59,219 nucleotides of DNA from Methanosarcinaceae archaeon (lineage in GTDB: Archaea; Halobacteriota; Methanosarcinia; Methanosarcinales; Methanosarcinaceae): contig JAIPUR010000016.1 in the NCBI GenBank assembly GCA_020055655.1, positions 1 to 59,219 on the forward strand. Reading direction: 5' to 3'. Below the pieces are notes generated by a model. That model saw only the letters and a list, made by a program, of their open reading frames with translations, was not told where the DNA came from and did not search any database. Position 1 is the stretch's first letter, and each line of letters opens with the position of its first letter. This document shows positions 20,952 to 38,918 of the stretch, one piece after another. A program made the position numbers and the translations under genes.

Positions 20952-21503
20952 TTACAGCAATCCCATGCTGTCAAGCTGCTGTCTTACAACTTCAACACCC
21001 TGCTCACAGTTCTCTGGGGACTTCCCACCTGTGACAACAAGCTTTCCGGAACTGAATATAAGAACTACTACCTTAGGATCATCGATCCTGTACACAAGAC
21101 CCGGGAACTGTTCAGGCTCGTATTCGATATTCTCAAGACCAAGACCAATTGCAATTGCATTAAGGTTCAATACTGCCTGAAGATCAGCAGAAGCTACAAT
21201 ATTCTGCACTGTAATTTCCGGATCCTTAATTGTCTTGATGCCGATACCGTTGAGCTTTTTAGCTATATTTCCTATGACGGTGTGAACATCAGCAACGTTC
21301 TTTGCACCTGTGCATACCACTTTCCCAGAAGTAAAGACTAAAAATGCTGCCTTAGGGTCAGTTACACGATAAACAAGTCCGGGGAATTTCTGCTTATTAT
21401 ATTCAGCACCCTCGAATTCAGCTTCTATTTTGGTAAGATCGAATTCTTCCGCAAGCTTAGTAGATGCTACTACATTTTCAATCTTAATATTATAATCTGA
21501 CAT
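20952..21503 (-). CDS. tbp: TATA-box binding protein
   Basis: General transcription factor that bends promoter DNA at the TATA box. The 183 residues are two imperfect repeats of about 90: [10 protein letters not shown]...[23 protein letters not shown] and [11 protein letters not shown]...[23 protein letters not shown]. Length and symmetry are standard for archaeal TBP. The aglJ-like gene follows closely. Confidence 0.97.
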
Positions 21504-21661: not shown

Positions 21662-22765
21662 TCAGTCCTCAAGTACCTTTAATCCATCTATGATAGCATC
21701 ATATTTACTGCAGACGCGGTCTATTATATCGCCATCGAAGCCTTTGTGAGTTGGAACCAGTATATCCGCATCTTCGCTTACATTGATGCCATCACTTGAT
21801 ATTTCATAATCAGGAGCTATGACAATACCTTCCGCAGAAACACCAATGCGTAGATCGCTGACAATACGTGCTACCATATCAGTAGCAGGTCTAACCTTCT
21901 TACTAATAACAAGAGCTTTGGAAGCATATCTTTCTTTCAGATCATTGATAGTTCTAAGCGCATGTTCTACTTTTTCAGGCTCGGATAGATTCTCGATCTG
22001 ACTGATAGCATTGATCAGATCATCAAATGTGGTGGAACTTATCTCAATGATCTCTCCATCATAATACTTGCTCACACGCTCCATATACCCTTTTGATATA
22101 AACACTTTATAAATATCCTCAAGCTCATCCAGTTCCTCTTCAGTGGGATTATAGACGTTTATCACTTTATAGTCCCTGATGCCACACATGTCCATAAGGG
22201 ATTCATACATTGGCGTGACACCGATAAATTTACGACCAAGCCATTTATTCAGACCACTTTGGCCACTTTGCATGCGGGAAAGTTCAACTATTTTCTTTTT
22301 GACCAGATCTGGAGAATTGGATTCCATTCCAAAATAATCAGCAAAAACAGGAGTGGTTTGAAGGATCTTGGTCCTGCCGTGAGGAACTGCTTCAACAAGG
22401 CCTCTTTCCTTAAGTTCACGAATATGATCATAAGCAGAATTACCCCTCATTTCAACAAGCTCTGATTGCACAAGTGGCTGATGATAGGCTATCATAGAAA
22501 GGGTACGCAGCATAGGTGCGCTCAGTTCTTTAGGTGCCACAGACCTAACAAGATCTGTATATGAAGGCTTAACTTGCATGACATAGCGTCCACCAAGGTC
22601 AAGCATTTCTATACCACTCTCACGGCTTTCGTATTCCTCAAGAAGTTCCTGAAGTATTGGAAGTACCTGTTTTTTAGTCTTATTAACAAGTTTACGAATA
22701 GAATCTATGTCAAGTGCGCAACCTGCAGCAAAAAGTGCTGCTTCAATAGCTTCTTTATCACCCAT
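21662..22765 (-). CDS. scpB: Condensin subunit ScpB with long C-terminal extension
   Basis: The winged-helix kite subunit of the SMC-ScpAB condensin. Residues 1-170 carry two winged helices (KEAIEAALFAAG; LSMIAYHQPLVQSELVEMRG; HIRELKERGLVEAVPHGR). The next ~200 residues (GRKFIGVTPMYESL... to the end) have no counterpart in bacterial ScpB of about 180-200 residues and look like a second, mixed alpha/beta part. ATG at 22765 has AGAGGTG 7 bases upstream. It follows scpA by 13 bases. Confidence 0.87.
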   Translation of the reverse strand: MGDKEAIEAALFAAGCALDIDSIRKLVNKTKKQVLPILQELLEEYESRESGIEMLDLGGRYVMQVKPSYTDLVRSVAPKELSAPMLRTLSMIAYHQPLVQSELVEMRGNSAYDHIRELKERGLVEAVPHGRTKILQTTPVFADYFGMESNSPDLVKKKIVELSRMQSGQSGLNKWLGRKFIGVTPMYESLMDMCGIRDYKVINVYNPTEEELDELEDIYKVFISKGYMERVSKYYDGEIIEISSTTFDDLINAISQIENLSEPEKVEHALRTINDLKERYASKALVISKKVRPATDMVARIVSDLRIGVSAEGIVIAPDYEISSDGINVSEDADILVPTHKGFDGDIIDRVCSKYDAIIDGLKVLED

Positions 22766-22778
22766 GGTCAAGCACCTC

Positions 22779-23609
22779 TTAAATTACCTCTACAGCAGTA
22801 TCGAATGGATACACATAAAGTTCACCAAACAGCTCTTTTTGAGCTATCCACACTTGTTTATCAGTAGCAAGGAATAATAATGATACATATGTCATTATAT
22901 TTTCAGACCTGTCTTCTCCCAGAAGATCAGAAAATTTTACAAAATCACAGCTATTAAAATCATCTTTTAGTTTCTCACCAAGGATTTTTACACGCCCCAG
23001 AATATCTTCTTCATGGGCAATCCCCAGTACCTCATCGGTAGTGGATGCGGACCTCTCTTCGAGCTTCCTGAAAACCTTACGATCCCTTCTGCGGGTTTCT
23101 ACGTTTTCAGCTTTTTTAAGTTCAAGAATAAGTTCCTGAAGAGTTACAGGTCGGGTAGCACGCCTGCGAATTGGAAGTTTTGGAACAGGATACTCATCCA
23201 CATCATAGAAATCCACATCATCATCGAACATGTCAAATTCATCATCTGGTTCTTCTTCCTGAACGATACCTGTTGATTTCATTCGAAGAAGAATAGAAGC
23301 ATAAAGAAGAGTCCTGCCGGAGATGCGCAGATCCATCATCTGTATGTGCTCAATGCGCTCAAGAAAAACATCAGTTACCTCTACAATATCGATATCCCAT
23401 GGATTGATATCCCCATTCTTAGCCAGATTCATGAGAATCTCAACTGGTTCATTCAATACATCTTCTGAGAGTTCAAAAAGGGACTCATCCACACCCAGGC
23501 TTCTAAGCGTATCTAAAATATCCGCATCAATGGAGCCCGGAAGAGGGAGGGAATTAACCGGAACAGCTTTGATTGTAGCTATTTCTCCATCTTCAATCAC
23601 CTCGCTCAT
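22779..23609 (-). CDS. scpA: Condensin kleisin subunit ScpA
   Basis: The kleisin that bridges the SMC heads. It has 276 residues, with the N-terminal helical domain (PVEILMNLAKNGDINPWDIDIVEVTDVFLERI), an acidic linker and a C-terminal winged helix (FVKFSDLLGEDRSENIMTYVSLLFLATDKQV) that binds the SMC head. Its start overlaps the smc stop by 4 bases (ATGA), so translation is coupled. Confidence 0.93.
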   Translation of the reverse strand: MSEVIEDGEIATIKAVPVNSLPLPGSIDADILDTLRSLGVDESLFELSEDVLNEPVEILMNLAKNGDINPWDIDIVEVTDVFLERIEHIQMMDLRISGRTLLYASILLRMKSTGIVQEEEPDDEFDMFDDDVDFYDVDEYPVPKLPIRRRATRPVTLQELILELKKAENVETRRRDRKVFRKLEERSASTTDEVLGIAHEEDILGRVKILGEKLKDDFNSCDFVKFSDLLGEDRSENIMTYVSLLFLATDKQVWIAQKELFGELYVYPFDTAVEVI

Positions 23610-26600
23610 CGCAATTTCACCCCTGTAATGCTTGTAATATTGTTTTCCTGCATAGCAACACCAATGGTCCTCTCTGCTGACTCTATCATTGGTTTTCTCA
23701 AAGATACCACAATGAACTGTGCATTGGCAACTGCCTTTTTCACACGCTCAGCAACTTTCCCTGCATTTGCACCGTCAAGGAACATATCGATCTCATCAAA
23801 TGCATAGAACGGTGCCGGTCTGTACTGTTGGATAGCAAATACAAATGAAAGAGCTGTAAGACTCTTTTCGCCACCGGACATGGCTTCAAGACGCTGCAAT
23901 GTTTTTTCTTTTGGTTGAGCTTTCAGCGTCATACCACCTGAGAATGGTTCATCGGCATTATCCAGAACCAGCTCCCCAGTCCCGTCAGAAAGCTCATTGA
24001 ATATTTCCTTGAATGAATTATTGATACCATTATAGGTATCCATGAACGTGTCCTTTTTAAGCTCCTCGTATTGCTTGATCCTCTCAAGGATCTGCTCCCT
24101 CTCTGAAGAAAGAGTATCCCTTCTGGTAACAAGTTCACTCAGACGCATATCTACTTCATCATATTCATCAATGGCACGCATATTAACAGGCTCAAGCTTC
24201 CCCATAGCTTTTTCAATGGATTCTATCCTTGTGCGCACTGTTTCATAATTAGGAACTTCATCACTATCTTCTATACCACGTCTCTTCAATTCTTCAGCAA
24301 GCTCAATAATCTGCTCTTCCAGAGCTGTTTTAGTAGCCTCAAGTGCTATCATCTGCCTGCTGGATTCTTCATGTTTAAGTCTGATCGCATCAAATTCCTT
24401 TTTCATTGAGACGTGGGCATCATGCAGATTCGAACGCTCAAGCTGCATCTCCTTAAGTTGCTCACCAAGTTCGGTTTCACGCTGCTGCATATCCAGGAGT
24501 GTTTGCTCAAGTTCTTCAATGCGAACTTTAAGTTCTGAAACACGTTGCTTATGAGTAGACTTCTTTTCATCCATTGACTTAATAAGTTCCCTATTCTCCT
24601 CGATCTTCGACAGGGCATGATCCCTTTCAAGATTGAAACCATTGATATCAGATTCAATGTCACGAACTCTACTATCCAGACGTCGAAGTTCATCATCAAG
24701 CTGCTCTGCCTGCCTGTTAAGTTCAGGAACTTCAGATCCTTCCAGTTTTTCTTCAAGCTCTGCTATTTTCCCTTCCAGGGAGAGTGCAAGTTCGTTCTTT
24801 TCTTCTTTCTGAGAAACGATACCTTCCATCTCCTGTCTGAGCTCTTTGCGGTCCTCTTCTATTTCCAACAGTTCGGAGTCCTTTGCCTCAATAAGTTGTG
24901 CAAGACGTTCCCCTCTACCTGATATCCCCTCAAGGTGCAGTTCCTTCTTGGAAATTTCTTTGTCACACTCGTGAATTTCACGGTTGATCTCAGAGATGTG
25001 ACCCTCTACCTGATCGAGTTTCTTGATAGCTGTTGCACGTCTTGAATCATATTCGGTGATCTTCTCTGCAAGTTTTACCAGCTTATCTTTCTCAGAAGCT
25101 GCAAATGAAAGGTTGGAACGCTGTCTGGAACCACCCACCATAGCTCCACTCTTCTCTATTACATCACCATCAAGAGTTACCATTCTAAGACCACCCATCA
25201 TACGACGGGCATTGGTGAGAGTATCAACGATCAAGGTGTCCCTGAAAACATACCAAAATGCAGGTTCGAATTTTGAATCAAAATCAATAAGGTCAATTGC
25301 ATAGCCAACGACACCTTCCTTGTCGGAAAGATCTTTGTATGGCCTGCGGGAATCCATTTTATTAAGTGGTAAGAATGTTGCCCTGCCACCATTTCTCTGT
25401 TTGAGGTAAGAAATAGCACGGGATGCATCCTCATCATTTTCTACAACAACTGCCTGCATCCTGCCGCCAGCAGCAATACCAAGAGCTGTTGAATATTTCT
25501 GGTCAACGCTTCCAAGTTCAGCAATTGTACCATATATACCAGGCAATCCATGGTGCTTTTTCTCATTCATCACCATATCGACTGCTTTTGAGTATCTGCT
25601 ATGGTCCTCTGCAGCTCTTACCCTTACTTCGATCCTGGCATAATCCTTTTCATAGGTTCGCAATTCAGATTCCAGATCCTTTACGACTTCTTTTATCTGG
25701 GCACGGTTGCGCTCGAGATCATCAATGTCCTTTGTAAGAGCATCGATCTTCTCGTTCAGTTTTTCAATATCATATTGAACGGATTTGATATCACTATCAG
25801 ATGAACCGACCTTTGATCTTGCATCTGCCACTTCACTTTCTATATCCCTCACTTCAGCAGATTTTCGCCTGAGAGAGTCAAGTAAGCGGTCTTCCTGACG
25901 CATTAATTCGTTCTTTTCATTTTTCAGGATCTCGAGTTTAGACTTCATCCCGGAAAGTTCATCCCGGGTTTCCGCAAATTTAGCATCTACGGATGCGATC
26001 TTACTTTGCAGGAGCATACGTTCGGTCTTCCGCTCAGATATCTCTGCAAGGATACCATCCTTACGAATGGTCTCTTCTGAAATACTGGAATCAAGGTCTT
26101 CTAACTTACCTTTGACATCATCGATCTCGACAAATGCTTTGCGTCTTCTGGATTCAATATCTTCCATCTCATTGTCTGCAAGTTCAATACTGCCAACACT
26201 ACGAGATATCTCTCCCCTGGTCTCTTCAATATGCTTCTTGATCTGGATCTGCTCATCCTCACCCATTTTCTGGATACGAGTGGTCATTTCCTCAAGGGAC
26301 TGCTCAAGTTCATCCACTTTCAGACGCTTTTCTTCAAGTGATCCACCAAGCTTTTCAAGGAATTCGTGTTTTGAACCTATATCGCCCATAACAGACTCAA
26401 GATCGGTTTTGGCATCCTTGAGCTTTGCAAGTAGTACAAAACCCTCAAATTTCATCTTCTCTTCTTTGAGAGACTGGTATTTGACCGCTTGATCTCGCTC
26501 TTTCTTGAGTTTCTCAAGCTGCACACCAACTTCATCAATAATAATGTCTACACGTTCGACCCGCTCACGCACAATGTCGAGTTCCCCAATTGCACGGTCC

Positions 26601-27127
26601 CTTTTGTTATCGAATTCTGCAACACCTGCAATCTCATCAATGATCTTGCGGCGCTCAGTGGGAGTCATATTAATGATGCGGGTAACGTCACCCTGCATTA
26701 CAACATTGTAACCCTCCGGAGTTACACGCGCCTTTGCAAGATGGTTATGAACATCGGAAAGGCTCACAGCCTTACCGTTAAAATAAAAATAACTGTAATA
26801 TCCGGAATCAGTTTCACGGATCTTACGTGTGATAGATATTTCATCACTGTCAACCGGCATCTCACGGTCAGTGTTGTCAAATAATATATTTACCTGAGCA
26901 AAGTCCGGTCTTTTGGAACCTTCCCCATTGTAAATAAGATCAGTTAATTTTTCAGCCCTCAGGGTCCTGGAGCTGGAAAGGCCGAGGACAAAGAGAATAC
27001 CATCTATTATATTGGACTTCCCACTACCGTTTGGTCCTGATATAGTGGTAAAACCATCAAAGAACGGGATCTTGACCTTTTTACCAAATGATTTGAAATT
27101 TATGAACTCAATTTCCTTAATATGCAC
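23606..27127 (-). CDS. smc: Chromosome segregation ATPase SMC
   Basis: Condensin ATPase of 1173 residues. Walker A GPNGSGKS (31-38), long coiled coils, the hinge (about 510-680, from GLPGIYGTIAEL), the C-terminal signature EAMSGGEKSL and Walker B FYAFDEIDMFLD. The start is GTG at 27127, with AGGAGA 5 bases upstream. It forms one continuous run with scpA and scpB downstream and the coiled-coil gene upstream. Confidence 0.97.
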   Translation of the reverse strand: MHIKEIEFINFKSFGKKVKIPFFDGFTTISGPNGSGKSNIIDGILFVLGLSSSRTLRAEKLTDLIYNGEGSKRPDFAQVNILFDNTDREMPVDSDEISITRKIRETDSGYYSYFYFNGKAVSLSDVHNHLAKARVTPEGYNVVMQGDVTRIINMTPTERRKIIDEIAGVAEFDNKRDRAIGELDIVRERVERVDIIIDEVGVQLEKLKKERDQAVKYQSLKEEKMKFEGFVLLAKLKDAKTDLESVMGDIGSKHEFLEKLGGSLEEKRLKVDELEQSLEEMTTRIQKMGEDEQIQIKKHIEETRGEISRSVGSIELADNEMEDIESRRRKAFVEIDDVKGKLEDLDSSISEETIRKDGILAEISERKTERMLLQSKIASVDAKFAETRDELSGMKSKLEILKNEKNELMRQEDRLLDSLRRKSAEVRDIESEVADARSKVGSSDSDIKSVQYDIEKLNEKIDALTKDIDDLERNRAQIKEVVKDLESELRTYEKDYARIEVRVRAAEDHSRYSKAVDMVMNEKKHHGLPGIYGTIAELGSVDQKYSTALGIAAGGRMQAVVVENDEDASRAISYLKQRNGGRATFLPLNKMDSRRPYKDLSDKEGVVGYAIDLIDFDSKFEPAFWYVFRDTLIVDTLTNARRMMGGLRMVTLDGDVIEKSGAMVGGSRQRSNLSFAASEKDKLVKLAEKITEYDSRRATAIKKLDQVEGHISEINREIHECDKEISKKELHLEGISGRGERLAQLIEAKDSELLEIEEDRKELRQEMEGIVSQKEEKNELALSLEGKIAELEEKLEGSEVPELNRQAEQLDDELRRLDSRVRDIESDINGFNLERDHALSKIEENRELIKSMDEKKSTHKQRVSELKVRIEELEQTLLDMQQRETELGEQLKEMQLERSNLHDAHVSMKKEFDAIRLKHEESSRQMIALEATKTALEEQIIELAEELKRRGIEDSDEVPNYETVRTRIESIEKAMGKLEPVNMRAIDEYDEVDMRLSELVTRRDTLSSEREQILERIKQYEELKKDTFMDTYNGINNSFKEIFNELSDGTGELVLDNADEPFSGGMTLKAQPKEKTLQRLEAMSGGEKSLTALSFVFAIQQYRPAPFYAFDEIDMFLDGANAGKVAERVKKAVANAQFIVVSLRKPMIESAERTIGVAMQENNITSITGVKLR

Positions 27128-27153: not shown

Positions 27154-27993
27154 TTACTTCCTGCGAGTTACCGTAATAACTGCATCTTCATCCTCACGCG
27201 CTTCAACGGTCTCGAATTCAGATCCACACTGCCTTCGATTACCATCTTCTTGCTCTTCTTGTTCTTCTTCTGCAACTATATAATTGCAGGATTCCCGTGG
27301 AACTTGTCTTGAATTCATATCAGCGTTGGATTTACGCTCCTCATCACTTTCAGCAATTATATACTCTGATCGAGGTTCAGGAGGCTGCGGAGCTGGAGGT
27401 TCGGGCATATTAGGCACATCCCTGATATTCACATTGACATTTGCAGGATTAGATCTTGATGGTATCCCTGAAGCAAGGTCCTGAGAAGACCTGACAGAGA
27501 CATTGGAAGTAGGACTGTTTGCCGGAATAGAGGGAGCAGGAGGTACAAATTGTCGTACCGGTGCTGTGTATACAGGACCTGGAGGAGCAGGGGTTTCCGT
27601 GACAGGAGCTTGCGGCACGAGTTCTGCAACTGGTGCTACATTCTGTGGAGGTTTGTAAACCTGTGGTTCCACGTTTTCCTGAACTAGAGGTTCAGGAGCT
27701 TTTGGAGTCTCTTTTTTAGGAATTGGAGGAGCTGTTTCTTTGAGCGTGCGGATCATAGATTTCTGATCCAGAAGTTCATCCATTACACCATTCAAATTAT
27801 TGCTCAGCGAATTGATCTTTTGCTCGATATTTGTAATTCGGTTGTTAATATCCAGATCATTCTTTAGATCACTTCTGATCTCCCGAAGAATAGAGTCATG
27901 CAAAGTGTTCTTTATGTTATCTACTTCCAGTTCCTTTTCCTTTAACTGCCGCTCAAGACGCTCAATGACAAAATCCCTGTTCTCATTACTCAT
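27154..27993 (-). CDS. Coiled-coil and proline-rich protein between rad50 and smc
   Basis: About 279 residues in three parts. Residues 1-95 are a predicted coiled coil (ERLERQLKEKELEVDNIKN and heptads after it). A proline-rich, low-complexity middle follows (PPIPKKETPKAPEP and similar). The acidic end contains two IVAE/IIAE-type elements (YIIAESDEE, YIVAEEEQEE) and finishes with VITVTRRK. I recognise no catalytic domain. ATG at 27993 has GAGG 8 bases upstream. It ends 26 bases before smc, so a role with SMC or Mre11-Rad50 is a reasonable inference. Confidence 0.75.
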   Translation of the reverse strand: MSNENRDFVIERLERQLKEKELEVDNIKNTLHDSILREIRSDLKNDLDINNRITNIEQKINSLSNNLNGVMDELLDQKSMIRTLKETAPPIPKKETPKAPEPLVQENVEPQVYKPPQNVAPVAELVPQAPVTETPAPPGPVYTAPVRQFVPPAPSIPANSPTSNVSVRSSQDLASGIPSRSNPANVNVNIRDVPNMPEPPAPQPPEPRSEYIIAESDEERKSNADMNSRQVPRESCNYIVAEEEQEEQEDGNRRQCGSEFETVEAREDEDAVITVTRRK

Positions 27994-28131
27994 GAAATTC
28001 CTCGCAAATCCATTCAATCCCTCATTAAATGTTGCTCTTGGGTTATTATAGGAATAAAAGTATAATATACCTTCTGGTTGCTTCAATATGCTCTCCCAAG
28101 CAATAAATAAGTTGCTAGGTTACCAAATCAG

Positions 28132-30801
28132 TCAATTTAAAGGGCTTATTAAAGAATTATTCTTCACCGGGTCCTTATCAACCACAAAAACATGATCAGC
28201 AGAGTCTATTAGCGATTCATCATGAGATACCAGCAATATCTGAGCAACCCCAATGTCCCGCATCATATCAATTAGCTTAATAAGTTGCTGCACATGGCCT
28301 TTGTCCAGGAACACTGTAGGCTCATCCATTATCAAAGGAGGAAGCGCAGCTTTGCTGGATAGTCCTGCGTTGCCAATGGAAAGTAAACGATATATAGCGC
28401 ATCTCAACACAAGATTGAATATAGCCCTCTCGCCGCCACTTAGCAATTTAGGCTCCAGGGGAGTCCCATCTTTACCAAACACTGTGAGGTTATAATCATG
28501 ATCCAGAAGAATATGGGAATATGCATTATTAGAATACATGAACGAAAATATCTCATTGATAAGAGCATCCAACGAGCCGATGTTCCGTGAGCGGAGGTCT
28601 GCACGAATGCGAATATACATAGCTTCCAATTCTTCGGCATCCGAATACACTGCATCAATGTAAGATGATTTCCTCTTGAGTGACTTTAACATATCCTTCA
28701 ATCCGGAAAGGCGCTTCAGCTCTGTTTCTATCATACCTATCTGCTTTGATACAGCTAGTTTCTCAGCGTCCAGTTTCTTAATTTCCAGCTCAATATTTGT
28801 CAAAACTGAAGCAAACTGTTTAGCTTTCGACTCCAGCTCGTCGACATCAAAATTCCCCATCTTCTCGGAGATTTCAACTATAGCAGTCTGCTTTTCCACT
28901 ATCTGCGAATCAAAAAGAACTATCATATCCCGGATGCTAACTATCTTATCCTCGAGCTGTTTGACATTTAGAAGTATCTTATCTGTTTCGACCAGATTCA
29001 GACTAAGTGCTCTTGCAAGATCCAGTTGTTTACGGGATAGAAGATGGGCTTTTGTAGCAGATTCAATGTCATCCCCCATTTTTGCCATCATTATCATCAT
29101 TTCACTGTGAGATTCTTCCAGCTTTGATACCTGAGTTAGAAGATCCTCTTTTTTCTTTTCATCTTCAGTTATACGGGAACTATGCTCTTCAAACAGTCTA
29201 CGGGAATTTGATATTTTATCCTTTAGGACCTTTTGATCAGAGACGATCGAATCGAATTCATTCTTAAAGTTACGGGCATCTTTGAGCTTCGAAGCCTTCA
29301 GTTCAATATCTTCCTGCTTCTTTTTTAGCTCTGATAGTTCAGACTGCAAGCTTTTTTCTTTCTCACTATCCAAATGACTGTGTTCTTCAACAGATGAGCC
29401 TGCAAGTTCCTGACCACAAGTTGGGCATTTTCCTTTTTCCAGCAATTCCTGTGATCTTTTGACAGTTGCATTGATCTCTGTGATCTTAACAAAGAGCTCC
29501 CGCTCTTTTCCATGCAGTATTCGTTGCTGATCTGCCACTAAGCCTGCGATCTCATCAAGATTTTCAATTTTATCCTCAGTAAATCCGAGGGATTCCAAGC
29601 CCTTAATAAGGGAAGAGCTTTTTTCTTCAAATTTGCTTTGGGAATTTAGAGAGGCCTCAATATCCGACTGGATAGAAACCAGCTTATCCTTGCTCTGCAA
29701 AATAGATTTCTCAACTGCATCGATCTGCTTCTTTTTTTCAGCAATTGAATTTGAGATGTTTTGAGAATCATTATTGAGAACAGATCTTTTGGATTCAAGC
29801 TGACTCAGATTATCCCTTGCAACGCGTTCATGGGAATCCAGTTCTGAAATAAATATATCAAGGTCCTTATTGCCCATGTCCAATACACTACTCATCTCTT
29901 CAGCCTTTACTTTGAGATTCTCAGATTCAGCCTTTAAGGATCCTATGTTTTTTTCAAGCGATCCTATCTGATCAAATGCCTTGATCTTTCTGTCATTGAT
30001 ATCCTTTTTTTGTAAAAGCAATGAATCTTTCTTAGATGCAAGCTCTTTGAACTCACTCTTTTGTTTTAAAACCTCATCTTTTCGGGAGCGTGCATAGTCT
30101 CTTTTTTCATTGAGAGAACTGAATTCACGATCGATCTCCAATGACCTGCTTTTTGAAACATTAAGTTGCTCCAGTGGTGAGCTTGACTCTATATTATCAA
30201 TTTCAAGTTTAGTGTCTTTAATGCGGTTATTTGCATCTCTTTTCAATCGTCCTACGCCTTTTCGTGAGCTTGATGCGCGTTCCCTGTATTCTTCCAGTTT
30301 ACCTAATTGCAGCAGATCATCTATCATCTTCTGGCGGTCTTTTGGTTTGGAATTTATGAGAAGGTCGATTTCACCCTGGCGAATATAAACACAATTTTTG
30401 TAAGCATCCTCGTCCATGTTCAGGAGATATCTTACAGCATCATAACTACGATTTGCCTGATCGGATAATATTGCCCCATCCTTTTTCAAAAGAGATTTTG
30501 TATTTGTGGCACGGGCTTTTTCAGGGTCGTTCCTGAACACCTGTTCAATCTCATAATCATGCCCATTCTGAGTGAATTGAAGATTAATAGACGCTTTTGT
30601 AGCTCCTTTCCGGACCATGTCCGAAAGTACAAATTCCTTATCAAGAGCTTTACTACCAAAAAGCCCTGTGAAACATGATTCCAACAGGCTGGATTTACCA
30701 CTACCGTTAACACCTGAAACAACAGTGACACCATCTTCAAAAGAAATATCAAGCTTTTCATAACTCCTGATATTCTCCACCTGTAACCGTTTGAGCATCA
30801 T
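28132..30801 (-). CDS. rad50: DNA double-strand break repair ATPase Rad50
   Basis: SMC-like ATPase that holds and tethers broken DNA with Mre11. It has 889 residues: Walker A GVNGSGKSS (about 30-38), coiled coils, the zinc hook CPTC at about 459-462, signature LLSGGERA, Walker B LIMDEPTVFLDKG and the D-loop/His region (LLVSHDESLID). Its ATG overlaps the mre11 stop, so the two are translated together. Confidence 0.97.
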   Translation of the reverse strand: MMLKRLQVENIRSYEKLDISFEDGVTVVSGVNGSGKSSLLESCFTGLFGSKALDKEFVLSDMVRKGATKASINLQFTQNGHDYEIEQVFRNDPEKARATNTKSLLKKDGAILSDQANRSYDAVRYLLNMDEDAYKNCVYIRQGEIDLLINSKPKDRQKMIDDLLQLGKLEEYRERASSSRKGVGRLKRDANNRIKDTKLEIDNIESSSPLEQLNVSKSRSLEIDREFSSLNEKRDYARSRKDEVLKQKSEFKELASKKDSLLLQKKDINDRKIKAFDQIGSLEKNIGSLKAESENLKVKAEEMSSVLDMGNKDLDIFISELDSHERVARDNLSQLESKRSVLNNDSQNISNSIAEKKKQIDAVEKSILQSKDKLVSIQSDIEASLNSQSKFEEKSSSLIKGLESLGFTEDKIENLDEIAGLVADQQRILHGKERELFVKITEINATVKRSQELLEKGKCPTCGQELAGSSVEEHSHLDSEKEKSLQSELSELKKKQEDIELKASKLKDARNFKNEFDSIVSDQKVLKDKISNSRRLFEEHSSRITEDEKKKEDLLTQVSKLEESHSEMMIMMAKMGDDIESATKAHLLSRKQLDLARALSLNLVETDKILLNVKQLEDKIVSIRDMIVLFDSQIVEKQTAIVEISEKMGNFDVDELESKAKQFASVLTNIELEIKKLDAEKLAVSKQIGMIETELKRLSGLKDMLKSLKRKSSYIDAVYSDAEELEAMYIRIRADLRSRNIGSLDALINEIFSFMYSNNAYSHILLDHDYNLTVFGKDGTPLEPKLLSGGERAIFNLVLRCAIYRLLSIGNAGLSSKAALPPLIMDEPTVFLDKGHVQQLIKLIDMMRDIGVAQILLVSHDESLIDSADHVFVVDKDPVKNNSLISPLN

Positions 30802-32225
30802 ATATAATCACCCAGATTGTATTGACGGGGTTTCATTGCAGCATTATCCGAATTTTCCTTGTTGGAAAAGTCAGATTCATCCTGAACATTTTCTTTGGAA
30901 TCTGCCTGATCATCTGAAGCTTCGTCATTAAACACATCTGCCTCTTCTGAATCAGTCGTTGTTTCAAATTTACCTTCATCTACAGAGTTGATATGATCAT
31001 CATAATCCTGATTTAAATGTTCAAGCTCTTCAGAGGAAAGCGTATTATTTTGTTCCTGGTCAGATCCTATTGGAATATCAGGAATATCCTGTGAAAAGTC
31101 CATTTCATCAAGCATCATGGCGATTCTAGTTTCAGCTTCGTCATCAACCCTTGTTTTTGGAACGCTTGTATCCCTTATGACCTCATCAAGAAGAATTCCA
31201 CCATCCGTGAAATGTAATTTCTTCATCTCTTCCTTTACAACATCATCAGGATCTGTAAATGATACTTTCATGGAAGGGTTCAGCAATGATTCCGTGCCCA
31301 TCCTGATGTCTTTAATAACCGGAACGAGAGCTTTTCGGGATAAGAGGAACTCCTCAATTTCACTGACCTTTGTTTTTGCTTCCGTGTCACCTGATATGTT
31401 CACAAAGACAACTTTGTCTTCAACATCATGTTCTTTAATGGCAGAAAATATCTGCTCATAGGCATCTGAATCTTTACTGATATGAACAGGAATGAAAAGG
31501 AAATCCCTTGTTTGAATGTTGCGTTTACTGATATCCAGGCCTGTTTCATTTACAGTAATGATGTTATAGGAACGGGGTTCGCGTTCTGAGCTGTTATTAC
31601 GCTCCGTACTGCCACAATAAGTAGCCCAGGTGTCATCCACCTTCGTGATCTCATGTTTGTGATTGTCGCCCAGAAGTACAGCATCTATGTGAAATGGTAA
31701 TGAATCCACCACTTCTTTTAGATCCCATTCTCCAAATGCAAATGGTTTCATCAACTGGTGCATCACAAGTATATTGTAAGCAGCATTGGCATCCTTGTTA
31801 TCAAATATTGAATAATCGAAAATAGGGATCTTTGATTTTGATACGCTGTCAATACCGTATATTGCAATATTTTTCAATATATACGGGATAGCACTTAAAC
31901 GAGTAACAAGGCCCATTCCAGCATAAAGGTCAAGCCACTGGGTGTTCTGCTTTCCCTCATGATTTCCCACTATTGCAAGTAAAGGAATTCCAGCTTCTTT
32001 CAAAATAGAGAACTGCCTCATTGTTTCAAGAATATCATCCAATGTGGGATTCCTTGAGTCGAAAAGGTCACCTGCGTGTATAACAGCATCAACCTGCATT
32101 TTAACAGCATCGGCAACAACATTTGCAAAGGCATCCATAAAATCCTGTCTGCGCACTTCATTGTGGTATTGGCGATACCCCAGATGAGTATCTCCCGTAT
32201 GAATCAATCGTATCTCATCAGCCAT
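30798..32225 (-). CDS. mre11: DNA double-strand break repair nuclease Mre11
   Basis: Mn-dependent nuclease that processes DNA ends with Rad50. Phosphoesterase motifs are in order: HTGDTHLG, HAGDLFDSRNPT, GNHEGK, a lone HQL and LLGDNHKHE. The last ~110 residues form an acidic, Asp/Glu/Ser-rich tail ending in RQYNLGDYI, not part of the nuclease. ATG at 32225 was chosen over a GTG 18 bases upstream because it starts the family-typical N-terminus. It overlaps rad50 by 4 bases and is divergent from pilin-like cluster A. Confidence 0.95.
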   Translation of the reverse strand: MADEIRLIHTGDTHLGYRQYHNEVRRQDFMDAFANVVADAVKMQVDAVIHAGDLFDSRNPTLDDILETMRQFSILKEAGIPLLAIVGNHEGKQNTQWLDLYAGMGLVTRLSAIPYILKNIAIYGIDSVSKSKIPIFDYSIFDNKDANAAYNILVMHQLMKPFAFGEWDLKEVVDSLPFHIDAVLLGDNHKHEITKVDDTWATYCGSTERNNSSEREPRSYNIITVNETGLDISKRNIQTRDFLFIPVHISKDSDAYEQIFSAIKEHDVEDKVVFVNISGDTEAKTKVSEIEEFLLSRKALVPVIKDIRMGTESLLNPSMKVSFTDPDDVVKEEMKKLHFTDGGILLDEVIRDTSVPKTRVDDEAETRIAMMLDEMDFSQDIPDIPIGSDQEQNNTLSSEELEHLNQDYDDHINSVDEGKFETTTDSEEADVFNDEASDDQADSKENVQDESDFSNKENSDNAAMKPRQYNLGDYI

Positions 32226-32348
32226 TGGAACTATGATATGCACCCCATTGGTTTAAAAATTGCCTGTCAGCAACACAATCTGCTATTTTCAGTCAGATGT
32301 GGCAATGGATACTGGAAATATCTTAAATATCCATATGACAATTTGGTT

Positions 32349-32356: not shown

Positions 32357-32383
32357 ATGCATTACTATATTTATACGGAAATT

Positions 32384-32851
32384 ATGGACGAAAAAGGGCA
32401 AATCACCATAGATTATCTGATCAGTATCACAATATTCCTATTCGCAGTTATTTTTGTATTTAACTACACCTCAGGGATCTTTACTCCCTTCCAGTCAAAC
32501 TCAGATGAGGTAACACTCATAGCTGACAGGGTTTCTACCACGCTCGTGGAAAAAAGACTGAGTGTAGGAGATGAGGGCACACCCAACCTTATCGATGAAT
32601 CAGAGGTTGACAGCTTCTTCACTGAACTCAATGGGAACTACGACACAGTCATAGACTCCCTGGGAATGAACGGAAGCTACCTGCGATATGACCTCAACGT
32701 TACTCTGGAGAACAGTACAGCACTCACAGATTCAGCAGGCAAGATAATCCCAGTTGGTGTCAACGTAGGGCAAACAAAGCGAATAGTCCTATTAAGAGAT
32801 AATATTTCAGGAAATACCGAGACCCTTACCATGTCATTCAGGGTGTGGTAA
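32384..32851 (+). CDS. Prepilin-like protein A1 (type 1)
   Basis: About 155 residues. The start MDEKG-QITIDYLIS has the prepilin pattern: short charged leader, Gly, Gln, then a hydrophobic helix to about residue 27. The rest is a small extracellular beta-rich domain with Asn glycosylation sequons. It is paralogous to B1 at 37438 (EDGQISLDFLLGI start). ATG at 32384 is preferred to 32357 because the TATA box spacing and the B1 start agree. First gene of operon A; its end is two bases from A2. Role: pilin or pseudopilin (inference). Confidence 0.75.
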   Translation: MDEKGQITIDYLISITIFLFAVIFVFNYTSGIFTPFQSNSDEVTLIADRVSTTLVEKRLSVGDEGTPNLIDESEVDSFFTELNGNYDTVIDSLGMNGSYLRYDLNVTLENSTALTDSAGKIIPVGVNVGQTKRIVLLRDNISGNTETLTMSFRVW

Positions 32852-32852
32852 C

Positions 32853-33470
32853 ATGAATGAAAAAAGTTTATCTGATATCAAGGCTAGTTCCTCGGCCCAA
32901 ATACACACCCTTGAAGCCGTCATTACCTCAATGATAATGGTAGGCATCATAATATTCACGGTACAGGCAACATCCCTCACCCCGCTTACATCCTCAACAG
33001 CTAATGCGCATATAGAGGCACAGCTTCAGACAATGGGACAGGACATGCTCAGTGCACTTGCATATTCATCATACGGACAGGATTCAAAGCTTAAGGAAGA
33101 CGTGCAGAACTGGAACGGAAAAGAATATGTCTGGAACGGAAGCGCTTACCAGATGTTCGCCTCAGAAAGCACAGCCCTTCAGAATAGTTCACTTGCAGAT
33201 ACACTCCTAATGGTTGCCGTCCCAAGGGGAATAGCCCACAATGTACATTTTGCTTGGATAGATGATGACGGTATCTTGAGAGACAGGAGATACATCTACA
33301 ACGGCGAGCCTTCAGACAATGCAGTAATCATATCGAAGAAGGTCCTGCTCTCAGATAACGATGTAGGCAACCTATCTACATTTTATGCAAGCACAAGGAT
33401 CCCGGATGCTGATATTTCTACAGATTTCTACAATATAGTCGACGTGAGAATGACATTATGGAGAATGTGA
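32853..33470 (+). CDS. Prepilin-like protein A2 (type 2)
   Basis: 205 residues. A 16-residue polar leader ends in SSA, followed by QIHTLEAVITSMIMVG and a membrane helix. The SAQIHTLE segment is repeated almost exactly in B2 (RAQIHTLE). The outer domain has family-like elements near the end (DNAVIISKKVLL, VRMTLW) that match B2 (EDAVVVRRLVTL, VRLTSW). It starts one base after the A1 stop. Confidence 0.75.
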   Translation: MNEKSLSDIKASSSAQIHTLEAVITSMIMVGIIIFTVQATSLTPLTSSTANAHIEAQLQTMGQDMLSALAYSSYGQDSKLKEDVQNWNGKEYVWNGSAYQMFASESTALQNSSLADTLLMVAVPRGIAHNVHFAWIDDDGILRDRRYIYNGEPSDNAVIISKKVLLSDNDVGNLSTFYASTRIPDADISTDFYNIVDVRMTLWRM

Positions 33471-33479
33471 GGCCTGATA

Positions 33480-34352
33480 ATGATCAACATGAAAAGCTTA
33501 GATGATTCCGCACAGTTGTTATTGATCGCAGGCTTTGCAGTAGGAGTTGGTATAGTAGTTATCACCATCATGCTCAACAATGTCATATATGCCAGTAATA
33601 TAGCATCGGAATCCAGTATCGATACTTCACGCTACGAAATGGCCAATGTTCTCCAGATGACCACCGAAGCATACGAAGATGCATACCATTATGCCATAAC
33701 AGGCGGTTCATTTGACAACGATGCTTTTGAACAATACCTTGAGAACTACACAGACAAGGCATCCCAGAACTACGGTGTAGCAGGCTTAAGCATCTCCTGT
33801 CAGACTGACAATATATCAACAGCATATTTCACACATAATGGACTTGCAGATGGAGAGAACGACTGGATACTTGTGAAAAATGTCAATATCACTGACTCTT
33901 TTGCGTTTGCTATACCCGATAAATCCCTGCTAGGAAACGAATCCAACAAAGTGATGATAAAGGCCACAAGCACATCCGGAACCATGTTGTGGTCAATGGA
34001 ATTCTACAATTCCAGTGGAAACATCAATATCACAGTCTCCGACCAGTCATCAACCATCGGTAACTACCAGAGCAACAGCGGGGAGATCAATATAACAGCT
34101 GACAAGATAGATGGGACCGGAATAGCTCCCGCATTCAGATTCTCTGACCGTACTGCAGGACAGGATTATTCAATAAATATCATAAACGGAAGTTATGCGG
34201 CCGGAACATACTCAATATCCGGCAATACGAGCACAGGTCAGTCTTTTATCCAGGCACGTTACTGGACGATAAATCCCATAGTCAGCATATCATCAAGAGG
34301 AATTACCATTAACAGGAGCATTCCAATATCACTACCAGGAGGAGTTCAATGA
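33480..34352 (+). CDS. Prepilin-like protein A3 (type 3)
   Basis: 290 residues. Leader to DDSA, then QLLLIAGFAVGVG and a long hydrophobic helix ending in NNVIYASN, then a large extracellular part. It corresponds to B3 (SNG-QWIALSGF, with NQAVIAGYHSS after the helix) but is nearly twice as long; the extra part is a beta-rich, Ser/Thr/Asn-rich domain. Its last bases overlap the start of A4 by 4 (ATGA). Confidence 0.72.
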   Translation: MINMKSLDDSAQLLLIAGFAVGVGIVVITIMLNNVIYASNIASESSIDTSRYEMANVLQMTTEAYEDAYHYAITGGSFDNDAFEQYLENYTDKASQNYGVAGLSISCQTDNISTAYFTHNGLADGENDWILVKNVNITDSFAFAIPDKSLLGNESNKVMIKATSTSGTMLWSMEFYNSSGNINITVSDQSSTIGNYQSNSGEINITADKIDGTGIAPAFRFSDRTAGQDYSINIINGSYAAGTYSISGNTSTGQSFIQARYWTINPIVSISSRGITINRSIPISLPGGVQ

Positions 34353-34822
34353 AGAGGTTGAGAAATGATGAGAATGCAGTCTCCCTTTCCATAGGATTTA
34401 TTCTCACCTTCTCCATAACAGTGCTGGTACTGGTTACCATCCTGACATCATTCTATTCTCTGATGAACCAGGCAGAGCAAACAGTCATGCGTGACGAATT
34501 CGAGATACACGGAAGCGACCTTGCAGTGAAGATAACGACCATTGATACCATAGCAGGAACTGCAATTAACTCAGGTGCAACTGTGGGAGAGATAAGGTAT
34601 GATGTATCCCTTCCTGAAAAGATTGCAGGAAAACACTATGAAATCGAGTTGTCCAATACGACAAATGACATAATCATTTCCTCGGAGGAAAGAGATGAGA
34701 CCCGAGTCAAAGTACCTTTTTCAACCGATGATGCAACAGTTCTTTCAACGACACTGTACAGTTCGCAGGGCGAATTCCAGATCGTCTACAACCCTAGCAC
34801 AAATACCATAGAAATGTCTTGA
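34349..34822 (+). CDS. Prepilin-like protein A4 (type 4)
   Basis: 157 residues. The leader MKRLRNDENA precedes VSLSIGFILTFSITVLVLV. The extracellular domain includes GTAINSGATVGEIRYDVSLPEKIAGKHYEI, which aligns with B4 (MYVILPANGKIEIDYTIPAKAGKDDYII). It overlaps A3 by 4 bases, consistent with coupled translation. Confidence 0.75.
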   Translation: MKRLRNDENAVSLSIGFILTFSITVLVLVTILTSFYSLMNQAEQTVMRDEFEIHGSDLAVKITTIDTIAGTAINSGATVGEIRYDVSLPEKIAGKHYEIELSNTTNDIIISSEERDETRVKVPFSTDDATVLSTTLYSSQGEFQIVYNPSTNTIEMS

Positions 34823-34827
34823 AAGCG

Positions 34828-35622
34828 ATGAATATGACAGGCAGAAAAGATAGACATAAGAACCTCAAAACATCTGAAGAAGCCATTACCGAGGTACTTG
34901 ATTTTGTAATAACCCTTGGAGTTATGCTTCTGGCACTGGCGATCATCGGGGTTGCAGGTTATCCAATGCTTGAGCATATGCAGGAAAGAGGGCATATTGA
35001 AAATGTGGAGCAGAGTTTTTCAGTCCTAAAGCCAAACATGAATAAAGTAGTATACGGCAAAGCACCTTCGCAATCCGTGGAACTGAAAATGTACGGCGGT
35101 ATGATCAGGGTTACAGGGGATAGCTCCATTAATGTCACCATGCAGGTATGGAATGAATCATCATCATCCATAGAAAATATTTTCACCACCAGAAGTTTGA
35201 GGTCAATAGAGAACGAATTTGAAGATACGTCTATAGCCTACGAGAACACAGGAGCATGGGCTAAATATTCTCAGGGAAACGCCATAGCCATCTCAGAGCC
35301 TGATATAAGCTATGACCAGAATATGCTTTTAATACCTATGGTTCCGATCTCTGGCTCCGAAGGTATTTCAGGATCAGGGCTTGTGAGAGTAATATTTGAA
35401 GGTGGGCAGTTGTCGGTTGAAAGGATCGAGAACGTATCGCAAGTAAGCATTACCGTGAAAAGTAGCTATTACACCGGATGGAAACGCTTCCTGAATGAAT
35501 CAATAGCCATGGAAATAACAAGTGTCGATGCAGCCAATGATACATTTACTGCAAGCAGAAACTACAACCCGAACATTGATGTTATTATTCCCATTGCGCC
35601 CATTACCGCAACAATAGAATGA
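34828..35622 (+). CDS. Prepilin-like protein A5 (type 5)
   Basis: About 264 residues. A longer leader (to SEEA) precedes ITEVLDFVITLGVMLLALAI. The head starts with the type-5 signature: NVEQSFSVLKPNMNKVVYG and APSQSVELKM. The same signature is in A6 and B5. ATG at 34828 was chosen; the frame opens at a TTG (34819) overlapping the A4 stop. Role unknown; pilin/pseudopilin by inference. Confidence 0.74.
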   Translation: MNMTGRKDRHKNLKTSEEAITEVLDFVITLGVMLLALAIIGVAGYPMLEHMQERGHIENVEQSFSVLKPNMNKVVYGKAPSQSVELKMYGGMIRVTGDSSINVTMQVWNESSSSIENIFTTRSLRSIENEFEDTSIAYENTGAWAKYSQGNAIAISEPDISYDQNMLLIPMVPISGSEGISGSGLVRVIFEGGQLSVERIENVSQVSITVKSSYYTGWKRFLNESIAMEITSVDAANDTFTASRNYNPNIDVIIPIAPITATIE

Positions 35623-35638
35623 AAAAGAGTGATGATAT

Positions 35639-37147
35639 ATGAAGAAACTGCTTGAATCCGAAGATGGCATCTCTCCAGTGGTCGGAATGATCATTGTCCT
35701 TGCACTTACCATTACATCCATAAGTCTGATACTACTTTACGCAACGCCTACCCTTGACAACATGGAGGATATGGCTAACGCCCAGGGAGTAGAGCAGGCA
35801 TTTACAGTTTTTGACTCCAGGACGAGTAAGGTAGCTCTGGGAGAGTCACCAAGCCAGACAACATCATTTTCCATCAGAGACGGGAATATTGAAGTAAATG
35901 GAAAAAACGACTCCTATAATGATAGCAAAATAGTTGTTATCTGTGTAAACAGCAGTTCTGGATGGTACAGCGGTTTTGAAGGGAGCATATACAATTGGAG
36001 ATCATGGGAACCATATCTTGGTCAGCCTGGGATGACTGAATTCAATGCTTCCATGGGAAGTATCACCTACACCAAAGATGATCGGATCATAGGTTATGAA
36101 GGTGGAGGTATATGGTCGAAGTATCCCAGTGGCAGTGCGGTTATGATATCCCCGCCTGAGCTACATTATAATGGAGAAACTGTCACCCTACCTATAATGG
36201 CGATAGCCGGTGGTCAGATATCCAGCGGGACAGCTAATGTGGATGTGACAGTCAGCTCTGGCAATATGCCGTCTGTATTGTACCCTGACCCTTCAGTAGA
36301 TTCGAATAGGATCAATCCTGTGGCTTCGGACAAAGTGCTTATCTACATAAAAAGTGAATTTTACAACGCCTGGGCTGATTATGCAGAAACACTGACTTCC
36401 ACCAATACTGCTCTGGATCATGAGAACAAGACAGCCATCATTGAACTGGATACTATAGCAGACATGGGAACATTTCCTCTGGCACATTCATTCAGGATCA
36501 CCGGTATGGATCATGTGGGTCCTGCACCAATCCACAATTTTTCATTTTATTTTTATGTTGAAGGAGATTCAAGTTTCTTTAAATCCTCTGGAATGATCAT
36601 GACTGCTACATCAGGAACAAAAGAGCTTGTATATAGTTTATCCAAGAAAAATCCTGGCGGTAACATAATACTGGCCAGAGCCCCAGGTGTAGCTGAGTCT
36701 AATTATGCAATCGAGTATACCGATAGCTCGGCAGGGATTATTGAAATATGGGAAAGCAATTCCAGCAGTTATTTTAGCGTTTATTCAGAAAAGAAACCTA
36801 AAAAATTTGCAGAAGGTACTGTTGACTTCCTTAGTGATACTTATCTAATGGATTACGACAGCAGTAGCCAAGCAACCTCCTGGGGTTCTGTTGGTGCCAC
36901 ATCAACCACACCCGACCTGTATATTGTAAAAGGCAATGCAAACAGCACCCAGTCATTAAACAACATTTCCCAACACTATCTAAGGCTCCTGGCACAGGAA
37001 GGTACTATAGAGTATAACTGGGATCAAAAAAAGAACGATAAGATTGAGATGGATAAATCCTCATATAGCCTGGAATATGATAGTGGTGGTGCCATTTTGA
37101 CATATCTGCATGTGAGCAGAAATGACCTTTCAGCCACGTTGACTTAA
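35639..37147 (+). CDS. Prepilin-like protein A6 (type 5, extended)
   Basis: 502 residues, the largest of the set. Leader MKKLLESEDG, then ISPVVGMIIVLALTITSI, the clearest archaeal prepilin start here. Residues about 45-260 repeat the type-5 head (GVEQAFTVFDSRTSKVALGESPSQT). About 230 further residues have no partner in A5 or B5 and look beta-rich. GTGATGATAT directly precedes the ATG. It is last in operon A; nothing obvious follows but the operon B promoter region. Confidence 0.76.
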   Translation: MKKLLESEDGISPVVGMIIVLALTITSISLILLYATPTLDNMEDMANAQGVEQAFTVFDSRTSKVALGESPSQTTSFSIRDGNIEVNGKNDSYNDSKIVVICVNSSSGWYSGFEGSIYNWRSWEPYLGQPGMTEFNASMGSITYTKDDRIIGYEGGGIWSKYPSGSAVMISPPELHYNGETVTLPIMAIAGGQISSGTANVDVTVSSGNMPSVLYPDPSVDSNRINPVASDKVLIYIKSEFYNAWADYAETLTSTNTALDHENKTAIIELDTIADMGTFPLAHSFRITGMDHVGPAPIHNFSFYFYVEGDSSFFKSSGMIMTATSGTKELVYSLSKKNPGGNIILARAPGVAESNYAIEYTDSSAGIIEIWESNSSSYFSVYSEKKPKKFAEGTVDFLSDTYLMDYDSSSQATSWGSVGATSTTPDLYIVKGNANSTQSLNNISQHYLRLLAQEGTIEYNWDQKKNDKIEMDKSSYSLEYDSGGAILTYLHVSRNDLSATLT

Positions 37148-37335
37148 AACTAAAGATGTAAACTACGTAAAATATACACAAATGGGATGTTCTAATGCTA
37201 TTGCATAGAACAAAATAATATATCTATCGTTGTTTACCATATTGTGAGAGGACATTTAGACCACTTAATAAATATAGTGTTTAATTATATAATATCTAGG
37301 ATATCAGGTGTTTGCTATACCTCCAGTAAATGGAT

Positions 37336-37420
37336 GAAGCTTATCAAATTCCTCAGTATAAGCTTCAAATTTCACTGTTTTAAGCTTGAAGCTAAATAAA
37401 AAACAAACAATTTTATATTA
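37336..37420 (+). promoter_or_regulatory. Promoter region of pilin-like operon B with spaced AAGCTT palindromes
   Basis: AAGCTT occurs at 37337, 37360 and 37382, 23 and 22 bases apart (two helical turns), inside larger inverted repeats: GAAGCTTAT/ATAAGCTTC (37336-37344 and 37358-37366) and AGCTTCAA/TTGAAGCT (37361-37368 and 37386-37393). A TATA box TTTTATATTA (37411-37420) lies 18-24 bases before the first ATG triplet, so the mRNA is probably leaderless. The arrangement suggests cooperative binding of a regulator just upstream of the TATA box. Confidence 0.55.
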
Positions 37421-37437
37421 AATAGGTAATATATTAT

Positions 37438-38409
37438 ATGATGATGGATGAAGATGGGCAAATTTCATTAGATTTTCTACTTGGCATTTCTTTGTTTCTT
37501 ATAGCACTTATGTTCATAGTACAATTCATCCCGGGATTATTCATACCTGGTACATCAGGAGAGGGAAGTCTGGACTATACGGCCTATCGCACAGCCACCA
37601 TACTAGTGGAAGACCCAGGATGGTGGGGTAACAGCACAAGCAGCGGCACTGACTGGGAAGAAAACACCGATAACATTCTGAGATTGGGACTTGCAGCTGA
37701 TGATGACAGCAGTTCAAAACTTACCAACACCCCTAACCTCCTGTCAAAGCAGAAGATCACCCAGATGATGATGGTTAACGAAAGCACCCTGGTCGAAAGG
37801 CTCGGCCTATACAATAACGTCGATGGCACCCTTTTTTCCTACGGATACAATATATCTATCACACAGAACGATACACCCCAGAGTCTGAACAACACACCCA
37901 TACTACTAGGAGAAACAATCCCGTATGACAGGGATGTATCGAAGATTACCCGAATAGTATTGGTAGAGAAAGGAGTTGAGGCACAGTTTGAAGCAGATGA
38001 ATTGACAATAAACGCATCAGAGGTTGAAGATCCCATATTGAACGTTACAGGACCCTTGAACGGTGAGATAAAAGTTCAGATCAGCAATTTGAACATAACC
38101 GGAGTGGACCCCAGTTTTAAGAGACTGATGCTTGACGGAGTACAACTTAACGAAGGTCCGGATTATATTTCTCATAAGCTGGTCAATGGAACTATGATAC
38201 CATTGGAGCCCACAGGCAAAATTAACAATAGCGATATCGTGATCTTTTACATTGAGCCGGGGATCTTCAACGATACCCGTACATACGAACTGGAGATTGA
38301 CCTCAAGGACATAACATTTACAAAATCAGGACCTCCTTTTTTGGATTTTAACCAATATATTAAAACCTTTTATGAACCCGCATACCTCACTGTGGAGGTG
38401 TGGAACTGA
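37438..38409 (+). CDS. Prepilin-like protein B1 (type 1)
   Basis: 323 residues. Three successive ATGs (37438, 37441, 37444) precede DEDG-QISLDFLLGISLFLIAL; 37444 gives the same leader as A1. After the helix, FVQFIPGLFIPG leads into a head about twice as long as that of A1. It shares a VEDPGWWGNSTSS segment and an ARIVLV-like strand (TRIVLVEKG; A1 has KRIVLLRD). Many N-glycosylation sequons. No ribosome binding site: leaderless start likely. Confidence 0.75.
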   Translation: MMMDEDGQISLDFLLGISLFLIALMFIVQFIPGLFIPGTSGEGSLDYTAYRTATILVEDPGWWGNSTSSGTDWEENTDNILRLGLAADDDSSSKLTNTPNLLSKQKITQMMMVNESTLVERLGLYNNVDGTLFSYGYNISITQNDTPQSLNNTPILLGETIPYDRDVSKITRIVLVEKGVEAQFEADELTINASEVEDPILNVTGPLNGEIKVQISNLNITGVDPSFKRLMLDGVQLNEGPDYISHKLVNGTMIPLEPTGKINNSDIVIFYIEPGIFNDTRTYELEIDLKDITFTKSGPPFLDFNQYIKTFYEPAYLTVEVWN

Positions 38410-38918
38410 ACGACAGAGCACAGATCCATACACTGGAAGGGCTTGCAGCTGCTATTTTGATGGTCATTACAATGTTAGCAATAACTCAAAGCGCCATGAT
38501 AGTAACACCCCAGAATGAGCTTTCTATGATCGTACATCAGGAACAAATATCATCCGATGCATTGACAGTGCTTGATATAGCACCTGATACAGCAATACAG
38601 TACAACCTGACAGAGTGCGTTGCAGGCTGGCAGGGAAATGAATCGAACGTTACTTCATCCAATCTGGAAACACTTGATAATGAACTTGCAAACTTGTTAC
38701 CTGATATCAAGTACAATGTAGATCTGGCTTACGTGAAGGATGGCGAATTGAACACAAAGCAAGTTATCATCAACGGAGCAGCTACTGAGGATGCGGTGGT
38801 CGTCAGACGCCTTGTGACCCTTTCCAATTCAAGCGTTACCAGTTCAGGGGGAGCATGGAACCTGACAGATGATGAGTTGATGGTTGTGGAGGTGAGGTTA
38901 ACATCATGGCAGATCTGA
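38400..38918 (+). CDS. Prepilin-like protein B2 (type 2)
   Basis: 172 residues. Short leader ending NDRA, then QIHTLEGLAAAILMVITML. It parallels A2 over its whole length and ends VEVRLTSWQI. The start is unclear: GTG at 38400 overlaps the ribosome binding site GGAGGTG (38394-38400), whereas an in-frame CTG at 38406 would have proper spacing and overlap the B1 stop as CTGA. No ATG is available upstream of the conserved start. Confidence 0.72.
   Translation: MELNDRAQIHTLEGLAAAILMVITMLAITQSAMIVTPQNELSMIVHQEQISSDALTVLDIAPDTAIQYNLTECVAGWQGNESNVTSSNLETLDNELANLLPDIKYNVDLAYVKDGELNTKQVIINGAATEDAVVVRRLVTLSNSSVTSSGGAWNLTDDELMVVEVRLTSWQI

Follow-up and report, generated by a model that had tools for sequence, protein, structure and literature searches.

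The open reading frame directly upstream of smc in a Methanosarcinaceae archaeon probably encodes a dedicated accessory factor of archaeal Smc-ScpA, acting as a coiled-coil oligomer that would present docking peptides on an acidic tail. We infer both the partner and the function, and put the probability of this reading at about 0.6. The gene was studied in a window of 59,219 nucleotides (the whole stretch of DNA that was analysed), whose relevant features are as follows.

21662–22771, minus strand: scpB-like gene (Pfam match)
22779–23609, minus strand: scpA, encoding the kleisin (Pfam match)
23606–27127, minus strand: smc (Pfam SMC_N and SMC_hinge)
27154–27993, minus strand: target reading frame, 279 aa, coiled coil with a disordered Pro-rich/acidic tail, member of the smc-upstream family
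27160–27216, minus strand: C-terminal stretch of the target (residues 260-278), conserved, predicted hairpin
27268–27282, minus strand: second tail motif, YIVAE (residues 238-242), exact
27349–27363, minus strand: first tail motif, YIIAE (residues 211-215), exact
27415–27432, minus strand: VNIRDV (residues 188-193), short stretch conserved in Methanosarcinaceae relatives only
27733–27987, minus strand: N-terminal helix/coiled coil (residues 3-87), the family core, DUF7518-like at residues 49-90
28060–28071, minus strand: TATA-like element, conserved upstream of the target gene in 26 congeners
28132–30801, minus strand: rad50, a neighbour whose linkage is not conserved
30798–32243, minus strand: mre11, likewise a neighbour without conserved linkage

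The initial annotation had described an N-terminal coiled coil, a disordered proline-rich middle, an acidic end with two repeated short motifs, and a position just before smc behind a ribosome binding site. Each of these points is borne out, the first two by structure prediction. The start codon is ATG 27993 with a GCGAGG ribosome-binding-type site immediately 5' of it, the stop codon occupies 27154-27156, and smc starts with GTG 27127, 26 nt past that stop. Single-sequence AlphaFold2 predicts residues 3-87 as a single helix (pLDDT mostly 82-95) and residues 88-256 as devoid of regular structure except for a 3-residue turn, and places a hairpin at 260-278 with low to moderate confidence (block pLDDT 50-75). 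The linker is rich in proline (29 Pro in the 130 residues 93-222) and the end is acidic (16 Asp/Glu in the 57 residues 223-279). The gene is single-copy within its genome. No Pfam or NCBIfam match above cut-off was obtained for the protein, and searches of solved structures, both by sequence and with Foldseek, returned generic coiled coils or insignificant matches only.

The target is related to DUF7518 (PF24362), whose function is listed as unknown in Pfam. Its own match is weak (15.0 bits, E 0.039, residues 52-90) and stays below the gathering score of 27 bits, which same-place relatives in its taxonomic family do pass (G034, G035, G032, G037 and G029). By single sequence, 26 of the 38 members of set A1 match DUF7518 at E 0.01 or better, the target not being among them, against 2 of 38 for FlaC_arch (PF05377), an archaellum accessory coiled coil that the target resembles weakly at the same residues (15 bits, E 0.035, below the gathering score of 27.8 bits). 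The target shares with DUF7518 the smc-upstream position, a 40-residue coil core and the haloarchaeal tail motif; it differs in an extra N-terminal helical stretch, in a Pro-rich linker of 130 residues, and in having two internal motifs in place of a single C-terminal one. In a protein search within its taxonomic family, 76 of 111 genomes gave a match to the target, and Methanosarcina-like genera matched weakly or not at all. The window genome belongs to family group f1, whose smc-upstream proteins include ones near-identical to that of the named Methanosarcina.

The wider family was delimited in 97 loci (100 regions taken around smc or DUF7518 matches, less three stubs) with an HMM seeded on 35 smc-upstream reading frames that had been found by the target itself. 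The HMM reached 83 loci after one iteration, and the next step added none. Searched against all 7255 reading frames of the 97 loci, it gave 84 matches, each to the reading frame that directly precedes smc; the one beyond the 83 is in L112, where the smc reading frame is over-extended. L108 and L109 have the motif upstream of smc and are not matched by the HMM, and the family gene is absent at smc from L073, L075, L076 (f3), L099, L101, L105, L106, L107, L110, L148 and L149. Separately aligned sets were compared by hhalign, with class names for the unnamed groups assigned by similarity to named records. The Methanosarcinaceae set (A2) matched the haloarchaeal set (A3) at a probability of 94.7% (E 6.2e-8, 39 columns), the Archaeoglobi-like f6 set (A4) at 98.7% and the Methanomicrobia-like set (A5) at 98.1%, and A3 matched A5 at 96.2%; the coiled-coil controls Rad50 and SMC reached 4.4% and 1.8%. 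These sequence comparisons establish the smc-upstream proteins of all four groups as one family. Chance similarity between coiled coils was considered as an explanation and is ruled out by the all-frame search together with the hhalign controls. In the open-licence literature, no publication was found on DUF7518, HVO_0688 or HVO_0690, and no title or abstract opening in the wider SMC literature describes the family gene.

Linkage to smc is nearly absolute. A search for smc-adjacent homologues had been set as a test beforehand, and the homologues do prove linked to smc. Across 246 genomes of the phylum, a Pfam scan gave 115 DUF7518 matches in 111 genomes, and 78 genomes passed the gathering cut-off. 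In 110 of the 111 genomes a match (110 of 115 in all) lies 1.6-2.2 kb upstream of an SMC hinge, on the same contig and strand. The five unlinked matches are all weak (E 1.7e-4 or worse), and four of them are second matches in genomes that also have a linked one. Selection bias, the loci having been picked around smc, was weighed as a source of the linkage and is answered by this unbiased scan against SMC hinge positions. Conserved operon position does not in itself prove contact with Smc.

The distribution of the gene follows the phylum, with gaps. Among 20 loci from named records, where phylum was read from the record title, the placement of ASS_A1 is ambiguous and several positives closely resemble sequences used in training, the gene stands directly upstream of smc in seven of eight Halobacteriota (Methanosarcina, Methanoperedenaceae, two Archaeoglobales, Halomicroarcula, Haloferax gibbonsii and Methanoculleus chikugoensis). 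The eighth, Methanothrix, has none directly upstream of smc, and neither has any of the 12 named loci outside Halobacteriota. The gene was likewise found in none of 20 smc loci from the phylum of a Methanocaldococcus (drawn from 34 smc-bearing genomes among 36), and smc loci outside the phylum in which it was not found number 32. When 30 whole genomes, mostly apparent negatives, were searched by alignment, the gene was recovered in four, namely the window's own, Methanosarcina, G246 and G124 (marginal, E 5.6e-4). By the same search it is absent from nine f3 genomes and the named Methanothrix, at a limited sensitivity that let G119 and G128 escape, both of which have motif-bearing genes at smc. 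Nineteen further loci, one of an original 20 being a stub, showed the gene in six of six from f4, f6 and f11 and at smc in none of 13 from f3, f9, f14 and f18; here L382 and L383 repeat L140 and L305, and L373, cut inside smc, is uninformative. Altogether, smc-bearing lineages without the gene at smc comprise f3/Methanothrix-type, f8, f9, f14, f17, f18, f19 and f27, and the gene is thus not essential to Smc as such. In G246, the family gene (contig C162, locus L361) follows aspS at a contig end and the smc contig of that assembly is without it, an arrangement due to either a split operon or a mixed bin. At L370-L372 (f14 and f18, no family gene), the reading frame before smc resembles a small membrane protein, with a V/I-L/I-KPI ending shared by two lineages.

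The tail peptide is the second line of evidence. As a DNA pattern, YI[IV]AE occurs twice in the whole 2.48-Mb window genome, both times in the target gene, and both repeats are kept in 26 of 26 congeneric sequences. Conservation per position among these congeners is 93% and 100% for the motifs, 88% for the coil and 56% for the remaining tail, with the C-terminal 20 residues also conserved. The family-wide pattern, hydrophobic-[IV]-[IVYFC]-[AC] counted beyond residue 85, has 118 occurrences among the 83 members. At least one copy is present in 76 of them and at least two in 41, whereas 200 shuffles of the members averaged 2.8 occurrences and never exceeded 8 in total. The residue limit conceals the terminal DIIVA of L111, and members without a counted motif include the variant endings DDIIVG (L081), DDIYVA (L100) and EIIVVD (L132). 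In L102-L104 (f11), and likewise in L377, the coil is present and the motif truly absent; of these coil-only f11 members, L103, L104 and L377 end in an FFH-type sequence and L102 in an FFK-type one. The target itself combines the tail pattern hydrophobic-I-hydrophobic-A/C with the position upstream of smc, both found here and neither a Pfam criterion. The repeated tail peptide is a family signature, with relatives far outside the window's genus.

The placement of the peptide varies with lineage and bears on what it may bind. Methanosarcinaceae tails carry YI[IV]A internally, mostly in two copies, and Methanomicrobia-like tails carry YIVAS plus an LIYAEDD-type peptide. In the Archaeoglobi-like f6 the motif lies at the C-terminus plus one residue (IIVCD), and in haloarchaea it is the extreme C-terminus (DDIIVA). 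Of 20 haloarchaeal genomes, 19 encode DIIVA followed by a stop at a single site, always in the family gene and 1.6-1.8 kb ahead of the SMC hinge; G198 reads DIIIA instead, and the reversed-pattern control gave no occurrence in haloarchaeal genomes. C-degrons sit at the extreme C-terminus, and the terminal motifs of haloarchaea and Archaeoglobi-like genomes would suit a degron, or a site for a partner unrelated to Smc such as the proteasome, the membrane or a division protein, with the coil binding Smc or nothing and the operon reflecting co-regulation only. We consider this explanation unlikely, since the Methanosarcinaceae motif is internal and duplicated, the target copies ending 64 and 37 residues before the C-terminus, and since linkage to smc is so nearly complete. 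A motif common to many proteins of a hub was also considered and not seen; taken as exact patterns only, YI[IV]AE in the window genome and DIIVA-stop in 19 of 20 haloarchaeal genomes are confined to the family gene. In the Methanomicrobia-like L078-L096, a second conserved tail stretch, IMQ-DGT-K, precedes YIVAS and may be a further docking peptide.

A docking site on Smc was sought among columns conserved in 94 family-positive Smc proteins and altered in gene-less lineages. In gene-less f3, positions 22, 27, 111, 113 and 1017 are changed in nine of nine loci, within segments 20-30, 106-113 and 1016-1017 of Smc (23606-27127 in the window), which is suggestive of a patch that lies in the head and close to where the coil joins it. 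Such co-loss was not seen in gene-less f9 (three loci, absence judged at smc only), f18 (three readable), f17 (two) and f8 (one), where the residues are all or nearly all kept, so the f3 head patch serves as a lead only. One report describes residues at the top of Smc heads, where DNA binds, in the numbering of another species, and segments 20-30 and 106-113 are numerically near the DNA contacts given there (PMC13102395). This proximity keeps alive a further alternative, in which the tail does not recruit Smc but, as a DNA mimic or chaperone, vies with DNA for the Smc head. The tails of the family are indeed acidic. However, haloarchaeal proteins are acidic proteome-wide, gene-less lineages other than f3 keep those Smc residues, and the conserved part of the motif is a hydrophobic core, all of which makes the alternative quite improbable.

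The locus itself argues for Smc-ScpA as the associated complex. Across the family the gap between the gene and smc has a median of 24 nt (n=83), and smc is the sole neighbour common to all family loci. scpA follows smc in 81 of 84 loci, the exceptions being L071, L072 and L097, the latter two cut by contig ends. At the level of the locus, and not of whole genomes, no scpB was seen at haloarchaeal and most Methanomicrobia-like family loci, and ScpB is therefore an unlikely universal partner. The TATA-like element at 28060-28071 is the likely promoter of a target-smc-scpA-scpB unit; because this element and the leader behind it are conserved in 26 congeners, the target probably heads a transcription unit separate from rad50, with smc, scpA and scpB behind it. 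The leader (28010-28080, minus strand) is strongly conserved at the DNA level in the 26 congeners (TGAGGGACTGAATGGATTTGCGAGG-like), and lying between the element and the ATG, it is possibly regulatory; congener L016 shifts frame in the target leader despite this DNA conservation. Just downstream of scpB (20952-21503, minus strand), a reading frame resembles by eye a TATA-binding protein.

The neighbours on the other side were named mre11 and rad50 on the strength of their Pfam matches (phosphoesterase and SMC_N/AAA), of gene order and of inspection. Of the 97 loci, 13 have them next to the family gene; these all come from the window's taxonomic family, and the remaining 12 of that family's 25 loci are without them (one of these, L145, shortened by a contig end). 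The initial annotation had proposed a partner of either SMC or Mre11-Rad50; the former proposal is favoured by the smc linkage and the conserved tail motifs, and the latter finds no such backing. That the protein is a partner or regulator of Mre11-Rad50 standing next to smc by happenstance is very improbable. Although rad50 is a direct neighbour both in the window and at 13 of this taxonomic family's 25 loci, mre11/rad50 are found at none of 72 loci outside it, and in 26 congeners a conserved TATA-like element belonging to the target separates it from rad50. Divergent from mre11 (32357-40525, plus strand) lie several small proteins in a row whose N-terminal segments are hydrophobic; by eye only, they resemble archaeal pilin-like proteins.

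An accessory factor of Smc-ScpA could work as follows. The protein, encoded at the start of the smc operon, would form a homo-oligomer through its N-terminal coiled coil, and its long disordered tail would carry one or two (D/E)-hydrophobic-I-(V/I/Y)-(A/C) peptides. These peptides may fit into a groove on Smc or ScpA, with avidity arising from the several tails displayed by the oligomer, and Smc-ScpA would thereby be recruited, tethered or gated on DNA. To our knowledge, archaeal Smc has no HAWK subunit. Budding-yeast condensin may nevertheless offer a model that works alike, without homology being claimed: the CR1 motif of Sgo1 and Lrs4 binds Ycg1 and recruits condensin (PMC11791182), a short linear motif thus recruiting an SMC complex, whereas the candidate receptor gene here lies inside the smc operon. 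The partners of archaeal Smc complexes named in PMC7055376 are ScpA and ScpB, which the target resembles as a small smc-linked candidate partner. Both are encoded separately in the window, and the target matches neither the kleisin nor the kite domain in Pfam (PF02616, PF04079). A bolder version is put forward tentatively, in which the target is a phylum-wide Smc subunit, a multivalent coiled-coil receptor whose almost invariant tail peptide serves to load or position Smc-ScpA, ParB-loader-like or kite-like in Halobacteriota. If true, such a subunit is described in no paper found in the open-licence literature.

The analysis provides a function hypothesis for DUF7518, now joined by relatives in methanogens and Archaeoglobi-like genomes. 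According to a review, deletion of smc in Haloferax volcanii is viable and gives a chromosome-contact phenotype. If the family protein is a dedicated Smc partner, recruitment and regulation of archaeal condensin would become directly testable in genetically tractable haloarchaea, with the six-residue C-terminal handle of the haloarchaeal member as the entry point.
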